From contig JAMPCE010000012.1 of assembly GCA_023666335.1 (NCBI GenBank), forward strand, positions 1 through 64,000: 64,000 nt of DNA. The letters run 5' to 3'. The position numbers and the translations under genes are program-made. This stretch comes from a bacterium (GTDB lineage Bacteria; Bacillota; Clostridia; Lachnospirales; Lachnospiraceae). Within the stretch, counting starts at the first letter, position 1. Every line of letters begins with the position of its first letter. Shown here in pieces: positions 49,871 through 57,569 of the stretch. The notes beneath the pieces are model-generated. The model was not told the origin of the DNA, did no database searches, and saw only the letters and a list, made by a program, of their open reading frames with translations.

Positions 49871-50851
49871 ATGGGGACAAAGGATGCGTATCAGTTTGAT
49901 TATCTGGATGATGACGGAAGGTTTGCAGACCAGATAAATGGTGCATTATTTAACGGCAGGCAGATTGTAAAGCCGGAGGAGTTGGAACCGGAGGATTCAC
50001 AGGCGGTAATCTTTGGCAGAGAGGGCGGAGCGGGAAATATTAAGACAATCGTAGATAAAGCCCGCATCTGGAAAGGGACAAAGCTGCATATCCTTGCAGT
50101 GGAGAATCAGAACTATGTGGACTATCGGATGGTTCTGCGGACCATGCTCTCAGAGAGCATCGGCTATCAGAAACAGTGGAAACGTAAGAAGCGCAGGCAT
50201 GAAGCAGACCGGGATTTGAAAGACAGGGACGAATTTCTCTCCGGTATGAAGAAGGACGAAAAGTATACACCGATTATAACGCTTGTCGTGTATTTTGGAA
50301 TGGATGGTACATGGGATGGAGCCAGATGCCTCTATGATCTGCTGGACATTGATGATGAATGGAAAGAATATGTAACAAATTACAAACTGAATCTGTACGA
50401 CTGCCACGAGCATGATACATTCGACGAATATAAGACAGGTCTGCGTCAGGTATTCGAGACAGTCAGGTATGCAAAGGATAAAGAGAAACTGCAAGAGATA
50501 ATGGAGGAAAACAGGGAAGCATATAGCAGAATCGACAGTGATACCAAAAATATGCTGGAAGTTGTGGCGAACATAAAGATATCCGAACGATGTAAAGTGA
50601 TGGAAGACGGGAAAGAGAGGTACGATATGTGTAATGTGTTTGAAGATATGAGGCAGGAAGGATACGAAGCGGGAATAGAAAAAGGAATAGAAAAAGGAAT
50701 AGAAAAAGGAATAGAAAAAGGAATACGCGCTTTGATCCAGACATGCGCGGAATTAGGCATTTCCGATGATGTGATCATCGAAAAATGTGCGGAAAAGTAC
50801 GAGATGACAAAGGAAGCCGCGGGCAGATATGTGAAAGAATGCTGTGCCTGA
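49871..50851 (+). CDS. Rpn/YhgA-like recombination-promoting nuclease
   Basis: A 326-residue protein resembling the Rpn family (PD-(D/E)xK nucleases once annotated as transposases). The N-terminal half has the core KLHILAVENQNYVDYRM with an ExQ-type catalytic strand, and KYTPIITLVVYFG, both characteristic. The C-terminal region has an (EKGI)n run encoded by a 12-bp repeat, then a helical tail. Family members cut DNA and can promote RecA-independent recombination; some variants act in phage defence. ATG 49871 follows GGGGAGGAAGGCTG. The gene is monocistronic, with a strong terminator downstream. Confidence 0.8.
   Translation: MGTKDAYQFDYLDDDGRFADQINGALFNGRQIVKPEELEPEDSQAVIFGREGGAGNIKTIVDKARIWKGTKLHILAVENQNYVDYRMVLRTMLSESIGYQKQWKRKKRRHEADRDLKDRDEFLSGMKKDEKYTPIITLVVYFGMDGTWDGARCLYDLLDIDDEWKEYVTNYKLNLYDCHEHDTFDEYKTGLRQVFETVRYAKDKEKLQEIMEENREAYSRIDSDTKNMLEVVANIKISERCKVMEDGKERYDMCNVFEDMRQEGYEAGIEKGIEKGIEKGIEKGIRALIQTCAELGISDDVIIEKCAEKYEMTKEAAGRYVKECCA
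50672..50719 (+). repeat. 12-bp perfect tandem repeat, four copies
   Basis: Four identical GGAATAGAAAAA units encode repeated GIEK-type residues in the Rpn-like protein. The 12-base period keeps the frame, so slippage would change length without truncation. Confidence 0.95.
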
Positions 50852-50919
50852 CGGGCGTGGAAATAGCAGAGTACAAGAGTCACCATTGTAAAGATGGTAT
50901 GATTACAGAAAAGCAGCAG

Positions 50920-50956
50920 ACGATCGGCGTGAGATACACGTCGGTCGTTTTGTTTT
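50920..50956 (+). terminator. Intrinsic terminator of the Rpn-like gene
   Basis: A 12-bp stem (50920-50931 with 50937-50948, two wobble pairs) and a 5-base loop are followed by TTTTGTTTT. The 301-bp gap 50852-51152 holds this terminator, then the amylase promoter and leader hairpin. Confidence 0.85.
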
Positions 50957-51004: not shown

Positions 51005-51033
51005 TTGCCTATACCTCCCGATTGGTCTATAAT
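51005..51033 (+). promoter_or_regulatory. Predicted sigma-A promoter of the amylase gene
   Basis: TTGCCT and consensus TATAAT are separated by 17 bases. Transcription would start near 51040, directly before the G-tract hairpin. Confidence 0.65.
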
Positions 51034-51042
51034 GATTCTTAA

Positions 51043-51074
51043 GCAAAATATACTGGGGGGGGGGTATATTTTGC
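51043..51074 (+). promoter_or_regulatory. G-tract hairpin at the 5' end of the amylase mRNA
   Basis: Perfect 11-bp arms GCAAAATATAC (51043-51053) and GTATATTTTGC (51064-51074) enclose a loop of T plus nine G; the full homopolymer is ten G (51055-51064). It begins within about three bases of the predicted start site. It could stabilise the mRNA, affect initiation or vary in length. Confidence 0.75.
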
Positions 51075-51152
51075 GCCGTATAAAGGGGAAAATGTGGGGA
51101 TGCGTGGGCATTTCCCAAAACAGTTTACATAACACAAGAAGGAGGTAAAGAA

Positions 51153-54100
51153 ATGAAACGAAAGAGATGTTTCAAAACGGTGTTGAGCGGCATGTTGGCG
51201 GCAATGATGCTGTTTACGTCCGCTCCGGTAGATGTGTTGGCGGCGTCTGTCGATCCGGCAGCGCTGGAGGAAGCGGCGCCGATCGCGCTGGCAGAAGAGG
51301 AAACGATTCCTGTCGATGAGGAAGAAATCGATGAGGAAGAAATCGATGAGGAAGTGCAGAGCCTTGAGGATGAGGAGAATGGCGCCGGCAGCGATGATGC
51401 GGCGGACGGCGGTGCCGGTGGTTTAGATGCGCAGGATGATCAGACTCCCGGTGAGGGCGAAGATGAGAATACCGGGGAGGATGATCCGGGTACGGAAGTG
51501 AATGCTGTCACAGGGCACAAGATTGATGGCAATAATGTAACCTTTACCTATGTTGGAGACGAGACTACTACCAAAGTACAAGTTGCCGGAAGTATGACAA
51601 ATTGGGAAAAGAATCCCATTGACATGGATGCGGGCGATAATCATGTCTTTACCAAGACGATGGAGTTGACTCCGGGTGATTATCAGTACAAGTTTATTGT
51701 AAATGGCAGCACTTGGATAGGCGAAGAGAACGACAATGATAAAAATAGATCTTTTAGCATAGAGGATCCAGATGGCGTAACAAGCCCTGTCATAAATGGC
51801 AGAGAAGTTACTTTCCTATATAAAGATAATACAGGTACAGCGACGCAGGTAAGATTAGCAGGCACAATGACTGATTGGGGCAGTGGAGCTAAGGATCTTA
51901 CAAAGAATCCAGAGACCGGTTTATGGGAGCTGAAGATCGAACTGGCTCCGGGTAATTATCAATATAAATTTATTGTTGGTGAAGATGGGTGGACAACGGA
52001 TCCGGGCAATAAGAATGAAAAGGTAGATGGAAACAGCGCATTTACTATCACAGGCTTGGAAGATGCCAAGCAGGACGTAAAACGAGGCGGAAGCGCAGAA
52101 CTTCCGAAGACTTTAAAATTGTGGTCGGACGATGGCAACTCATCTGACGCGTCGGTTACTTATACGCTTGCGGATTCAACATATGCGGATCAGATTACTT
52201 TGACGACCGAGACGGTGGAGGGTGCAACGGCTACGACGGTCACAGTTGCGGCTGATTTGCCGGATACCGTAACAGAATTTGCCTTGACGGCGTCGGACGG
52301 AACGAATACTTCTACGGTGACGATTTCCGTTAAGGACTTTACCTGTGTCTATACGATTTATTACTATGATCCCAATTCGGAGCATATGACGGTGGATGCG
52401 GCAGCGCTCTGGCTTTGGCAGACAAGCGGTGCGGGCGCTTCCAACCAGACGGATTTTGATGAGACAGAAGTGCTTGCAGATGGCAATACTTGGTTAAAGA
52501 AGACGATCGAGTTAGGTTATGCGGATGTGTCTCTGATCCCCAAAGCATATGGTTCATGGGAGTGGCAGGATGGTACCGGTAAACGGTTTGTCAACACGGA
52601 AGAAAAAGAAGCGATTACGTTATATACCGTATTTGGCGATGAGGAAATTTACACAGAGCTTCCGAAGATTGGTACTTATTCCCGATATCTCGTGGTAGAC
52701 TACACGCGCACAAGCGATTCGGCTGCCGATTGGACTTTCTATACCTGGAACGGCGGGTATGGAAACATGTCCGTGCCGTTTACCGATGATGACGGTGATG
52801 GAACGGCAACCGTTCAAATTCCGGTAAAGGAAGGTCTTGACTCTATCAGTTTCGTGCTCGCACAGACTGCTTCCATGACAGCGTCTGATTGGATAAAAGA
52901 CGGCGGCGACTTTGTCTGCCCGATGCCCGTCGATCAGAGCGTGGTCAAGATCAAGATGGAAGAGGGAAAGGGCATTACCTATACCTATCCCTACAACGTT
53001 GGCTATGAGATCGATCCTGTAAATGGCAAGATCAGTTTCTACTACAGGGATGACGAGGCTTTCCTTGCGGGCAGTGAAAGCGGCTGCGAGGCAGTGACGT
53101 TAGAGCTGATCGCGCCGGGCGCGGAAGCGGCAGTGAAGCAGCCGATGGTATTTGACGCGGATGAGCAGCGTTATGAGTATGTTTTGAATAAGCTGGAAGT
53201 AGGCAGTCATTATTATCGTTACGGCGTCAAGAAAGCAGGCGCGGAAACGTATGTACTGGATGCGTTTAATGAGACAAGCCAATTCGTAGGGGAAACAGAG
53301 TATTCCGTACTGGAATATGATATTCTGGATATTGCGCCGGAAGCGTCCATGTCTCAGGCGTCTATGGACTACAACGACAACAATGTATTGACTGTAAAAG
53401 TCAATGCGAAAGATAAGGACGGTCAGTCGGTAGACGAAAAAACAGCCCGCGCGCAGATCAAGCGTGCAACGGTGGACTTGAGTGCAGTCGGCGGCGGTCT
53501 GACGGAAATTGAGCCGGAACTGATGGCGATCTCCATTGCGGTAAAAGAGGGGACGGCAGCAGGCGTAAAGACGCTTCCGATCGTCGTGTACGATCAGTAT
53601 GAAAATGCGTATAAGGCAGAGGCGAAAGTTGAGGTAGTGCCTCGTGGCGGCGGCGACTTTGACTGGGATGAGGCTGTGATCTACTTTGCCGTGACAGACC
53701 GTTTCTATGACGGCAATGCGGCAAACAATGAAGGCGGTGCGGCGGGCAGTTACGACAAGACGACTAATAACGGCTCGAACTCCAGCTATCACGGCGGCGA
53801 CTTCGCGGGTCTGACCCAGAAACTGGATTATTTACAGGAACTTGGCGTGAATACGATCTGGATCACGCCGATCGTAGAGAACCAAAAGACTGCAAATGCG
53901 GTTACGGATAACGATACCGTGAAGCAGGCGTGGGGCTATCACGGGTATTGGGCGAAAGACTTTGAGAAACTGGACGCCCATCTCGGAACGGAGGCGGAGT
54001 TTGGCGCATTGCTGGATGCCGCGCATGCAAAGGGTATGAAAGTGATGGTGGACGTCGTTTTGAACCACAGCGGTTACGGAACAGATGTTACCGATTACTT

Positions 54101-57100
54101 CAATACGAACTTCAAGAATGAAGCCGGCGAGTCCATCAGGATGTTAAGAAATACGGATGAGATGGTAAACGGAAGCGATCAGCAGTTTTCGTTGTCCGGA
54201 CTTCCCGATTTCCGCACCGAAGATCCGGAAGTCAGAGAGCTTCTGGTAGAGTGGCAGTCTAATTGGGTGAGCAAATACCCGATCGACTATTATCGTGTGG
54301 ATACGGTGAAACATGTAGACGATACGACGTGGTCGGCATTTAAGAATGCGTTGACGCAGATCGATCCCGATTTCAAGATGATCGGTGAATGGTCGGGCGC
54401 AGGTTACACATCGGATACCGGTATGCTGCGCGCAGGCCGTATGGATTCCCTGCTTGACTTTGATTTCAACGATCAGGCGGCAACGTTCGTGACCGGGAAT
54501 CTCTCCGGTGCAGAGAGTTTCTTATCTGCAAGAAACGCGGCGATCGATAACACGGCTTCCTTGGGTTCTTTCCTGAGCAGCCACGATGAAAACGGATTTA
54601 TCTACAGTCTGACCGAGAAGGGCAAGACGTTGGAAGAAGCCCGCAATCTCGCGCTGGTGGCGGCTTCCCTGCAGATGACCGCGAAAGGGCAGGTAGTCAT
54701 CTACTACGGCGAGGAGATCGGCGACAGCGACGGGCAGGAGAATTATCCTTATAATACGAACCGTGATGACTTTGACTGGACGAAAGTGACGGACGACAAT
54801 GCGGCATTGGCGCATTATAAGAAGATGCTCTCGATCCGTAATGATTATACGGACATACTGGCAAAAGGCACGCGTACGACCATAGCGGCGGATAACGCCA
54901 AAGGCGTGGACGTCTTCAAGAGAAGCTACGGCGGCAAAGAACTGACGATCGCGCTGAATATCACGGGTGCGCCTGTCACTTATACGCTGGCATTGGGAAG
55001 CGGATATGCGGATGTATCGCTGAAAGACTGCTACAGTGGGAACTTCTACAATACGGATGCGGCAGGCAATGTTGAAATCACGATACCGGCAGCGGCGGCA
55101 GGCGGTACGGTCGTTCTGGTAGAAGCGGGCGCAGCAGCGGATGACAGTTACAGTGAAAAGGGATACCGGGTAACTTTCGATTATAACTGCGGCGCGGAAG
55201 TGAAAGCAAAAGTGATCGAGGTAGAGCCGGGCGCATTGATCACGGAAAATGACATGGCGAAAGTAAGGGCTGTGAAGCGGAAAGGGTACAGCCTGCAGGC
55301 GGAGTGGTACAGGGACGCGGAATATAAGAAAGTATGGAACTTTGACACCGACACGGTGCAGGAGGACATGACACTGTATGCGCTTTGGTTGAAAGAATCA
55401 GATGCGCAGGAGCAGGAGAAGACTTCGTTGGTCGTGCAGGAGATCCGTCCGCTGACCTATACGGGCAGCGCCCTGAAACCGTCCGTGATCGTATATGCCG
55501 ATGTGACGGATGCAGACGGCAATACGGAACGCATACAGTTGAAGGCAAACAGAGATTACAAGGTAACCTATAAGAACAATGTAAACGCGTACGCGGGAGA
55601 ACTGAAAGCGTCCGTGGCGCTTGACAAGGCATATGTAGACCAGACGACGAAGCCGAAGAACCAGTGGTTTGCCGGACCGTATGTGGAGATCAAAGGGAGC
55701 GGCAGCTACAGCGGCTATGTCTATCAGGCATTTGAGATCGTACAGGCGGACATCAAAGAAGCGACGCTGAACTATAATACGCAGCTTGTAGCGGATAAAC
55801 AGGCGAAGGTCGTAACCTCCCTGAAATATAAGAAAGCGTTAAAAGAGGGAACGGATTACGATGTCGTAGTAAAAGATGCAGGCGGCAAGATAATCGCAGA
55901 AACCAAATATAAGGATGAAGCGAAAACCAAACTCAATAAAGCGGCAGTTATTGCAAAAGCGGATGCAAAGTCGGGAACCTATGCAATGACAATCACGGCA
56001 AAGGGCAATTATAAGGGCACAGTGACGGGCGATATCATGATTGCAGCCAATAACCAACTGATGCAGAAAGCAGTCGTTTCCGTAGGCGCTAATGCGAAGT
56101 CGCAGAAATGGACAGGAAAAGCGATTACCTTGACGTCCGCTTATGCACTGACAGGAAACAACGCGACAACGCTTGATGACAGCGTAGTGAACAAAAAAGA
56201 AGTTTACACGGTAAAGCTGGGCGGAAAACTGCTGAAAGAAAACAGAGACTTTGTTGTATCTTATCGAAATAACGTAAATGTTGGAACGGCGACAATGGTT
56301 CTGACAGGTCTCAAGAGCGAAGCGGAAGGTGCGGTGTTCTGCACCGGTACGAAGGAAGTGACCTTCAAGATCACGGGTTCGAAGTTTGCGGCAGCAGGCA
56401 AAGACAGCACCATCAAAGTCAAAGACGGAGATGCAGAAACGAACGGCAAGGACCTTACTGCGGCAGTTTACACGGGCAGACCCGTGACGAAGAGCGGTGT
56501 TGTGCTGACGAGCGAGCAGAAAGGGGAAGGCGATGCCGGAAAACTGGTACTTGGCAGGGATTATAACATCACCTACAAGAACAACCTAAAGAGCGGTAAC
56601 GCGACAGTGACTTTCACGGCGACGGAGCGGTCAGGCTTCACGGGTAAATTTACGATGAAGTTCAAGATCGACAAAGCGGATCTGTCTGAATTGACCAGGA
56701 TAGACGGCGTTACAGCCACAATTGATGGGGAAACGAAAACATGGACGGCGGCTGCGGCAGTGCCTTATACACCGGCAGGTGCGAAACTGACCGGCATCAC
56801 GCCCCACAATGCAGTCAGCGGTACGGCGCTGAAAGAAAAGACGGACTACACGATCAGCGATGTCAAGGGCTGTAATTATAAGAAACCCGGTGAAGTAAAA
56901 GCGCTGCTGAAAGGAAAAGGAAACTATAAAGGGCAGTTGGAGGTAAACTACACGATTGGCAAGGCAACAATTGATGACCTGACAATCACCGGCAAGGCAG
57001 TACAATATAATCCGGCAGCGACGAAAGATTATGCGCCCGCCATCACGGTCAAGCATGGCAAGACGACGTTGAAGGCAAACGGAAATAATGCGGTTTATGA

Positions 57101-57569
57101 GGTTGCATATCAGAATTGTAAGCCGGACGAGGTGAAAGCATATATCGACTACAGAATCAACAATGGGGCTAAGAACCCTGAGCCGACGGCGACAGTCACG
57201 CTGAAAGACAGCGAGTATTACGACGGATTAAAGACGGCGACAGTGCCGCTGACGATCTTTGACAAGGACCATAAGCTGACAGCCAAAAAGGTGAAAGTGA
57301 ACTTCAACGCCGAAACGCATTACTATGAAGGCGGTCGGCAGATCCGTCCGAGCTTTCAATCGATTCAGTTTGACCCGAAGGGCAAGTTCGCTGAAGGTAC
57401 TGAGAATGCGTGGATTACTCTGTCCCCTCAGGACTATGACATCACATGGGGTGCAAACAACAAGACCGGCAACGGGACCATGAAGATCACGGGTAAGGGA
57501 ATCTACAGCGGAACGGTGACAGTGAAATTTAAGATCGAAAAGAAGCCGATCAACAGGAAAACAAACTGA
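51153..57569 (+). CDS. Secreted multidomain GH13 amylase/pullulanase-like enzyme
   Basis: A 2138-residue exported protein with signal peptide MKRKRCFKTVLSGMLAAMML and AxA-like end. After an acidic linker come two starch-binding-type domains of the AMPK/CBM48 style (VAGSMTNW and LAGTMTDWG), a CBM41-like region (YTIYYYDPNSEHM), then the GH13 barrel: YHGGDFAGLTQKLDYL, VDVVLNHSG, nucleophile D1050 (YYRVDTVKH), acid/base E1079 (MIGEWSG) and D1145 (LSSHDENG). An InlB-type repeat and about six Ig-like repeats (pattern DYxVxYKNN, then GKGxYxG) follow. It should cut alpha-glucans outside the cell. No LPxTG or membrane anchor is seen at the C-terminus (KPINRKTN). AGAAGGAGGTAAAGAA precedes the start. 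Confidence 0.9.
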   Translation: MKRKRCFKTVLSGMLAAMMLFTSAPVDVLAASVDPAALEEAAPIALAEEETIPVDEEEIDEEEIDEEVQSLEDEENGAGSDDAADGGAGGLDAQDDQTPGEGEDENTGEDDPGTEVNAVTGHKIDGNNVTFTYVGDETTTKVQVAGSMTNWEKNPIDMDAGDNHVFTKTMELTPGDYQYKFIVNGSTWIGEENDNDKNRSFSIEDPDGVTSPVINGREVTFLYKDNTGTATQVRLAGTMTDWGSGAKDLTKNPETGLWELKIELAPGNYQYKFIVGEDGWTTDPGNKNEKVDGNSAFTITGLEDAKQDVKRGGSAELPKTLKLWSDDGNSSDASVTYTLADSTYADQITLTTETVEGATATTVTVAADLPDTVTEFALTASDGTNTSTVTISVKDFTCVYTIYYYDPNSEHMTVDAAALWLWQTSGAGASNQTDFDETEVLADGNTWLKKTIELGYADVSLIPKAYGSWEWQDGTGKRFVNTEEKEAITLYTVFGDEEIYTELPKIGTYSRYLVVDYTRTSDSAADWTFYTWNGGYGNMSVPFTDDDGDGTATVQIPVKEGLDSISFVLAQTASMTASDWIKDGGDFVCPMPVDQSVVKIKMEEGKGITYTYPYNVGYEIDPVNGKISFYYRDDEAFLAGSESGCEAVTLELIAPGAEAAVKQPMVFDADEQRYEYVLNKLEVGSHYYRYGVKKAGAETYVLDAFNETSQFVGETEYSVLEYDILDIAPEASMSQASMDYNDNNVLTVKVNAKDKDGQSVDEKTARAQIKRATVDLSAVGGGLTEIEPELMAISIAVKEGTAAGVKTLPIVVYDQYENAYKAEAKVEVVPRGGGDFDWDEAVIYFAVTDRFYDGNAANNEGGAAGSYDKTTNNGSNSSYHGGDFAGLTQKLDYLQELGVNTIWITPIVENQKTANAVTDNDTVKQAWGYHGYWAKDFEKLDAHLGTEAEFGALLDAAHAKGMKVMVDVVLNHSGYGTDVTDYFNTNFKNEAGESIRMLRNTDEMVNGSDQQFSLSGLPDFRTEDPEVRELLVEWQSNWVSKYPIDYYRVDTVKHVDDTTWSAFKNALTQIDPDFKMIGEWSGAGYTSDTGMLRAGRMDSLLDFDFNDQAATFVTGNLSGAESFLSARNAAIDNTASLGSFLSSHDENGFIYSLTEKGKTLEEARNLALVAASLQMTAKGQVVIYYGEEIGDSDGQENYPYNTNRDDFDWTKVTDDNAALAHYKKMLSIRNDYTDILAKGTRTTIAADNAKGVDVFKRSYGGKELTIALNITGAPVTYTLALGSGYADVSLKDCYSGNFYNTDAAGNVEITIPAAAAGGTVVLVEAGAAADDSYSEKGYRVTFDYNCGAEVKAKVIEVEPGALITENDMAKVRAVKRKGYSLQAEWYRDAEYKKVWNFDTDTVQEDMTLYALWLKESDAQEQEKTSLVVQEIRPLTYTGSALKPSVIVYADVTDADGNTERIQLKANRDYKVTYKNNVNAYAGELKASVALDKAYVDQTTKPKNQWFAGPYVEIKGSGSYSGYVYQAFEIVQADIKEATLNYNTQLVADKQAKVVTSLKYKKALKEGTDYDVVVKDAGGKIIAETKYKDEAKTKLNKAAVIAKADAKSGTYAMTITAKGNYKGTVTGDIMIAANNQLMQKAVVSVGANAKSQKWTGKAITLTSAYALTGNNATTLDDSVVNKKEVYTVKLGGKLLKENRDFVVSYRNNVNVGTATMVLTGLKSEAEGAVFCTGTKEVTFKITGSKFAAAGKDSTIKVKDGDAETNGKDLTAAVYTGRPVTKSGVVLTSEQKGEGDAGKLVLGRDYNITYKNNLKSGNATVTFTATERSGFTGKFTMKFKIDKADLSELTRIDGVTATIDGETKTWTAAAAVPYTPAGAKLTGITPHNAVSGTALKEKTDYTISDVKGCNYKKPGEVKALLKGKGNYKGQLEVNYTIGKATIDDLTITGKAVQYNPAATKDYAPAITVKHGKTTLKANGNNAVYEVAYQNCKPDEVKAYIDYRINNGAKNPEPTATVTLKDSEYYDGLKTATVPLTIFDKDHKLTAKKVKVNFNAETHYYEGGRQIRPSFQSIQFDPKGKFAEGTENAWITLSPQDYDITWGANNKTGNGTMKITGKGIYSGTVTVKFKIEKKPINRKTN

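Follow-up and report, generated by a model that had tools for sequence, protein, structure and literature searches.

The window analysed here is a stretch of 64,000 nucleotides of DNA from a bacterium of the Lachnospiraceae. It carries the gene of a giant secreted alpha-amylase, and the region in front of this gene contains a run of ten G residues (G10) held within a perfect inverted repeat (Table 1). The amylase matches PF00128 (E 1e-45) as well as CBM48/AMPK1_CBM and PUD, and related proteins are found across the genus. A terminator-like hairpin closes off the upstream gene, and the amylase gene is therefore probably its own transcription unit. An Rpn-like ORF (49871-50851) carries tandem 12-bp repeats of the GGAATAGAAAAA type (GIEKGIEKGIEKGIEKGI) at window positions 50660-50730, a possible repeat-variable site.

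Table 1. Positions of the amylase gene and of the features in front of it.
Feature	Position	Strand	Basis
Terminator-like hairpin between upstream gene and amylase	50918..50950	+	consensus scan
P1, sigma-70-like promoter: TTGCCT (51005-51010), 17 bp, TATAAT (51028-51033)	51005..51033	+	consensus scan, 10/12 matches
Candidate degenerate -35 (TTAAGC) of P2	51039..51044	+	aligned with TTGACA of L226/L238; alone 3/6 consensus
Left arm of perfect 11-bp inverted repeat, GCAAAATATAC	51043..51053	+	sequence and inverted-repeat search
G10 simple-sequence tract	51055..51064	+	sequence; candidate slippage site
Right arm of perfect 11-bp inverted repeat, GTATATTTTGC; first base is the tenth G	51064..51074	+	sequence and inverted-repeat search
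TATATT, candidate -10 of P2, abutting the tract	51065..51070	+	genus-wide G8+TANNNT rule
Ribosome-binding site AGGAGG	51140..51145	+	sequence
Secreted alpha-amylase (GH13), 2138 aa, signal peptide, starch-binding-like modules	51153..57569	+	ORF and domain matches

The two arms of the repeat are 100% complementary, by direct reading and by an inverted-repeat search, and no other inverted repeat with a short loop reaches 9 bp between positions 50500 and 51500. The first-pass annotation had placed the G10 inside a perfect 11-bp hairpin and had put the end of a -10 element nine bases before it. Both placements are confirmed, the -10 element being the TATAAT of P1. The same annotation described the exact complements as flanking the tract; the arms are indeed perfect, but the tenth G counts as a base of the right arm, and the loop therefore consists of a T followed by nine Gs.

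Two promoters can be proposed in front of the amylase gene. By its elements, P1 is a good promoter of the sigma-70-like type. Matches to the promoter consensus as good as that of P1 occur about once per kb, which is not above chance (shuffle mean 1.6). The presumed 5' end of the amylase mRNA would lie just after P1. The second candidate, P2, would be built around the tract itself, since the G10 stands directly 5' of the -10-like hexamer TATATT, as in the spacers of porA-type promoters. Its putative -35 element, recognized by alignment with the TTGACA of two promoters found in relatives, is degenerate, and the spacer of 20 bp goes beyond the usual range; P2 may thus be weak or unused at G10.

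Poly-G tracts of the genome and of the genus

The genome comprises 3.1 Mb in 117 contigs. Counts of runs of at least nine Gs come from a scan of the whole genome, and the distribution of run lengths from 792 kb that were read directly. By chance, the number of runs declines geometrically with their length. In the 792 kb, the A/T runs follow such a smooth decay, without the second peak seen for the G/C runs (542 of length 5, 27 of 6, 1 of 7, 3 of 8, 3 of 9, 8 of 10 and 2 of 11). This second peak at G10 argues that the tracts are maintained and that they slip. Genome-wide, 33 runs have at least nine Gs (5 G9, 23 G10 and 5 G11), none of them being longer. The G10 of the amylase locus is itself longer than chance allows, as are the tracts of SSR contingency loci.

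Some of the tracts of this genome lie within ORFs, either keeping the frame or coinciding with a break in it, and others upstream of genes. Among the products linked to them are flagellin, methyl-accepting chemotaxis receptors, an EAL protein, a sulfatase-like enzyme, an acyltransferase, a radical SAM protein, a weak glycosyltransferase match and large secreted proteins, a gene set such as phasomes usually comprise. As at SSR contingency loci, there is a link to surface, motility or variable-expression genes, and the amylase is itself secreted. Five promoters of the genome (L009, L010, L017, L041 and L052) have the arrangement TTGACA/G-N8-9-G9..11-TAGAAT/TAGACT, and the first three of them stand before the genes of large secreted proteins whose signal peptides resemble one another.

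Of 234 contig ends, 5 have a G tract no more than 25 bp away, for an estimated expectation of about 0.06. Such an excess would be expected if the assembly breaks at the tracts; it could result from ambiguity of tract length or from a sequencing bias. Two contigs, C49 (L037) and C81 (L049), both end in TTA-G10-TAAATA in front of an ORF for a GntR-like regulator; they seem to meet at one tract, and the assembly seems to break at G tracts.

The association of the tracts with a -10 element extends to the genus. A scan of 77 same-genus genomes gave 289 cases of G8 directly before TANNNT, as compared with 44 for the reversed control, and the bases after the G8 are mostly TAAAAT, TATAAT or TAGAAT. 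Among 98 tracts of this type, a TTGACA-like box (at least 5/6) lies 7-10 nt upstream of the tract in 27 cases, against about 2 expected from neighbouring positions. This peak indicates that the tract fills the spacer between the -35 and -10 elements, as in porA and tp0126. The tract class is concentrated in this genus, where 67 of the 77 genomes bear the motif, vs. 122 of 394 in other genera of the family.

The total length of the spacer in the 98 genus tracts (including L163-L299) is most often 19 bp, its two parts compensating each other (N9+G10, N10+G9 or N8+G11). A constant spacer of 19 bp is suggestive only: it occurs in 15 of 23 cases for 7 expected, with a permutation p of 0.0002 for a statistic picked after the data had been seen and a p of 0.12 in a variance test. 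This length may correspond to an OFF state, or it may be the working spacing when the spacer DNA is G-rich and A-form-like.

Two promoters of relatives are particularly close to P2. The 22 bases AAAATATACT-G10-TA of the amylase locus have an exact copy in genome G027, at L226, where TTGACA-AAAATATACT-G10-TAAAAT precedes a membrane-protein gene. The ortholog of L226 in genome G042 (L238) reads TTGACA-AAAATATACT-G9-TATAAT, and the length of the tract thus differs between the two species, G10 vs. G9. In the amylase counterpart, TTAAGC-AAAATATACT-G10-TATATT, TTAAGC occupies the position of TTGACA. Such an exact match over the 10 nt of AAAATATACT is unusual among 132 tract flanks, but the shared spacer sequence is short and may have arisen by convergence. 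No orthologous copy of the amylase promoter region was found among the 77 same-genus genomes.

Tracts are also found inside the coding sequences of related amylases, close to the secretion signal. Two of these are in frame, a G9 in G057 (C26) and a G8 in G040 (C18). In two others, a signal peptide is followed by the tract and then by a long amylase ORF that is out of frame, with G8 in G027 (L151, C126) and G11 in G057 (L152, C90); as assembled, these two amylases would be in the OFF phase, despite their different tract lengths. Three other amylase homologues examined have no G tract. Orthology of the window promoter with those of other amylases was ruled out, because the neighbouring genes are not common to them and no G tract stands upstream of their ORFs. 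For the same reasons, the in-gene tracts are not homologous to the tract of the window, and control by G tracts has apparently arisen more than once on this type of enzyme. No other independent argument speaks as strongly for a role of the window tract as this apparent repeated origin.

These comparisons bear on whether the tract of the window has any effect on amylase output. P1, with its 10/12 matches and its 17-bp spacing, is the better promoter and could alone be enough for all amylase transcription, in which case the length of the tract would be of little consequence: the tract would slip, but as a passive part of the leader, and the predicted folding of the leader and access to the ribosome-binding site are independent of its length from G6 to G14. 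Such passivity fits poorly, however, with the place of the G10 right next to a -10-like hexamer, an arrangement typical of the promoter class found across the genus, and with the clear frameshift consequences of the tracts of related amylases, and we regard it as rather unlikely.

The palindrome and the folding of the leader

Among 58 G tracts examined, that of the amylase locus is the only one with a stem longer than 8 bp, the next best stem being 8 bp, and the remaining stems agree with those of re-paired flanks. Hence, a hairpin is not a general trait of G tracts. The tract of this locus is of a kind seen throughout the genome, but its hairpin is peculiar to the locus. In 792 kb of the genome there are 38 perfect repeats whose arms measure at least 11 bp and whose loop is 3-14, from which the chance that any G tract, genome-wide, lies in such a loop is estimated at about 1%. 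The palindrome is absent from L226 and L238 and therefore stands outside the promoter design that these relatives share with P2.

Several identities were discarded for the palindrome. It is not a dispersed repeat, since the genome holds no second copy of the region and only a single instance of the hairpin pattern; no further palindromic copy was found in the 792 kb. A search of Rfam gave no match above threshold. The hairpin does not appear in a terminator scan of both strands, and its stem is followed by GCCGTATAAAGG where an intrinsic terminator is expected to have a run of T. Finally, a tiny invertible element was ruled out; an invertible segment of 10 bp is not plausible for known recombinases. 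Elsewhere in the genome, another hairpin, GATT(G/A)AAAAATCA-N11-TGATTTTT(C/T)AATC, recurs at L079:9256, L081:4599 and L111:19782.

A regulator might bind the palindrome, the half-sites of which are 21 bp apart, that is two helical turns, or the palindrome could form a stabilizing stem at the 5' end of P1 transcripts. A stable stem near the 5' end of a transcript can protect an mRNA, and transcripts from P1 would start a few bases before a stable stem of 11-12 bp. The first-pass annotation proposed that a tract held in a hairpin at this position could change the choice of the start site, mRNA stability or the formation of a G-quadruplex. The leader does fold better than 200 shuffled sequences (z -3.6). 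But from G6 to G14 the predicted energy of the hairpin shifts by only about 1 kcal/mol and the exposure of the ribosome-binding site (AGGAGG) is unchanged, so that the length of the tract is a poor handle on RNA structure and no effect at the RNA level is predicted over this range. As the hairpin is, in addition, neither common to other tracts nor present at L226 and L238, this part of the earlier proposal was not upheld, and we consider it quite doubtful that the tract acts in this way.

Repressors often bind just downstream of a -10 element, which is where the palindrome lies with respect to P1. With perfect 11-bp arms that are exceptional among the 58 tracts, it might be the operator of a dimeric regulator, of which the tract would phase the two half-sites, 21 bp apart from centre to centre, slippage then tuning the repression of P1. 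Nevertheless, the 792 kb contain no second palindromic copy, the similar promoters L226 and L238 lack the palindrome and no regulator gene is linked to it, all of which makes an operator of this kind unlikely. A more specific candidate was the operator of a metal sensor of the CsoR/RcnR (DUF156) family. The sites of this family contain a G tract between TACT/AGTA-like arms, and the TACT-G-tract of the amylase locus resembles RcnR sites. This assignment is extremely improbable and was abandoned: the single DUF156 gene of the genome has a different palindrome upstream, ATACCCTATAGGGGTAT, and no matching site in its own promoter, the pattern TATACNG6..GTATA has no second genomic match, and the genome-wide G10 class accounts for the tract better. 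The palindrome ATACCCTATAGGGGTAT (L003:1348-1364), upstream of this only CsoR-family gene and followed by an ORF with the heavy-metal-binding motif GMTCAAC, is probably a copper operator.

Proposed slippage in a promoter spacer and related systems

The reading that we prefer, although we give it only an even chance of being right, is that the G10 is a slippage (contingency) tract in the -35/-10 spacer of P2, the length of which alters amylase transcription, the hairpin being secondary. It would be one of the approximately 33 poly-G contingency tracts of this Lachnospiraceae genome and would separate the -35 and -10 elements of another promoter of the amylase gene, TTAAGC-(AAAATATACT-G10)-TATATT, downstream of the conventional P1. 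Replication slippage would remove or add one or more Gs and thereby set the spacer of P2, which would measure 20 bp at G10, 19 bp at G9 and 17 bp at G7. Changes of the spacer would in turn alter amylase transcription, so that cells with high and with low expression would coexist in the population. The palindrome of 11 bp would be an extra of this locus, possibly a regulator site or a 5' stem, and not the switch.

What is established is the tract itself, the fact that it belongs to a non-random class of tracts throughout the genome, and the promoter layout common to the genus. From these we infer the use of P2, a variation of the tract in the population and an effect of this variation on amylase output. 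Switchable expression of the amylase by slippage, already put forward in the first-pass annotation, is thus plausible and is strengthened by the 33 tracts of G9-11, by the association of such tracts with -10 and TTGACA elements across the genus and by the in-gene tracts of related amylases.

More tentatively, the whole may be one poly-G phasome extending over a genus of gut Lachnospiraceae, in which starch-degrading enzymes, besides surface antigens, would be switched stochastically by slippage in promoter spacers and in reading frames, the promoter tracts being held near a -35/-10 spacing of 19 bp. If true, cells of a single clone of these commensals would differ stochastically in their use of starch, in their motility and in the make-up of their surface, and the assembly breaks at G runs would be easier to explain. 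Bet-hedging on dietary substrate would also become directly testable.

The best-known cases of poly-G phase variation are those of host-adapted pathogens, among them Neisseria, Campylobacter and Treponema, and Campylobacter, Helicobacter and Neisseria are lineages well known for SSR phasomes. In Neisseria and Treponema, switches of this type are established both for promoters and for reading frames (PMC5320596, PMC7864442). The mechanism considered here is of a known kind, the lineage and the type of target being new. In a search of literature that covered few subscription journals, we found no report of poly-G phase variation in Lachnospiraceae or of phase-variable amylases.

The closest parallels are porA of Neisseria meningitidis and tp0126 of Treponema pallidum, where a tract of about 7-11 Gs between the -35 and -10 elements sets by its length the spacer and the expression (PMC7864442, PMC5320596). 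The G10 of the amylase gene is likewise placed in a candidate -35/-10 spacer. In contrast, the tract of the window is that of a gut commensal and would act on a giant secreted amylase, the effect of its length on expression is a predicted one, the -35 element is degenerate and the tract lies in a palindrome behind another promoter. In tprE/G/J and tprL of Treponema pallidum, a poly-G tract is found near the start site, with mixtures of lengths within isolates, and in tprE/G/J eight Gs or fewer are permissive (PMC7864442). The amylase tract is also close to a start site, which here is a predicted one.

In Bifidobacterium breve, a G tract splits the first pilin ORF between the secretion signal and the remainder and thereby serves as an ON/OFF switch of the pilus (PMC9187656). 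This organism is also a gut Gram-positive, and the amylases of G027 and G057 are split after the signal in the same way. However, the pilus switch is a translational frameshift, whereas the tract of the window amylase sits upstream of the ORF. In the SSR phasomes of Campylobacter, Helicobacter and Neisseria, G/C tracts occur by the dozen in genes for surface, motility and glycan functions (PMC6321876, PMC2823697), and the tracts of the present genome are also at motility, glycan and secreted-protein genes.

As a separate observation, a G10 followed by TATATT (L053, G000 C95:32869-32878) stands about 91 bp in front of a flagellin gene (PF00669) and next to a sigma-28-like GCCGATAC; this flagellin is possibly phase-variable.
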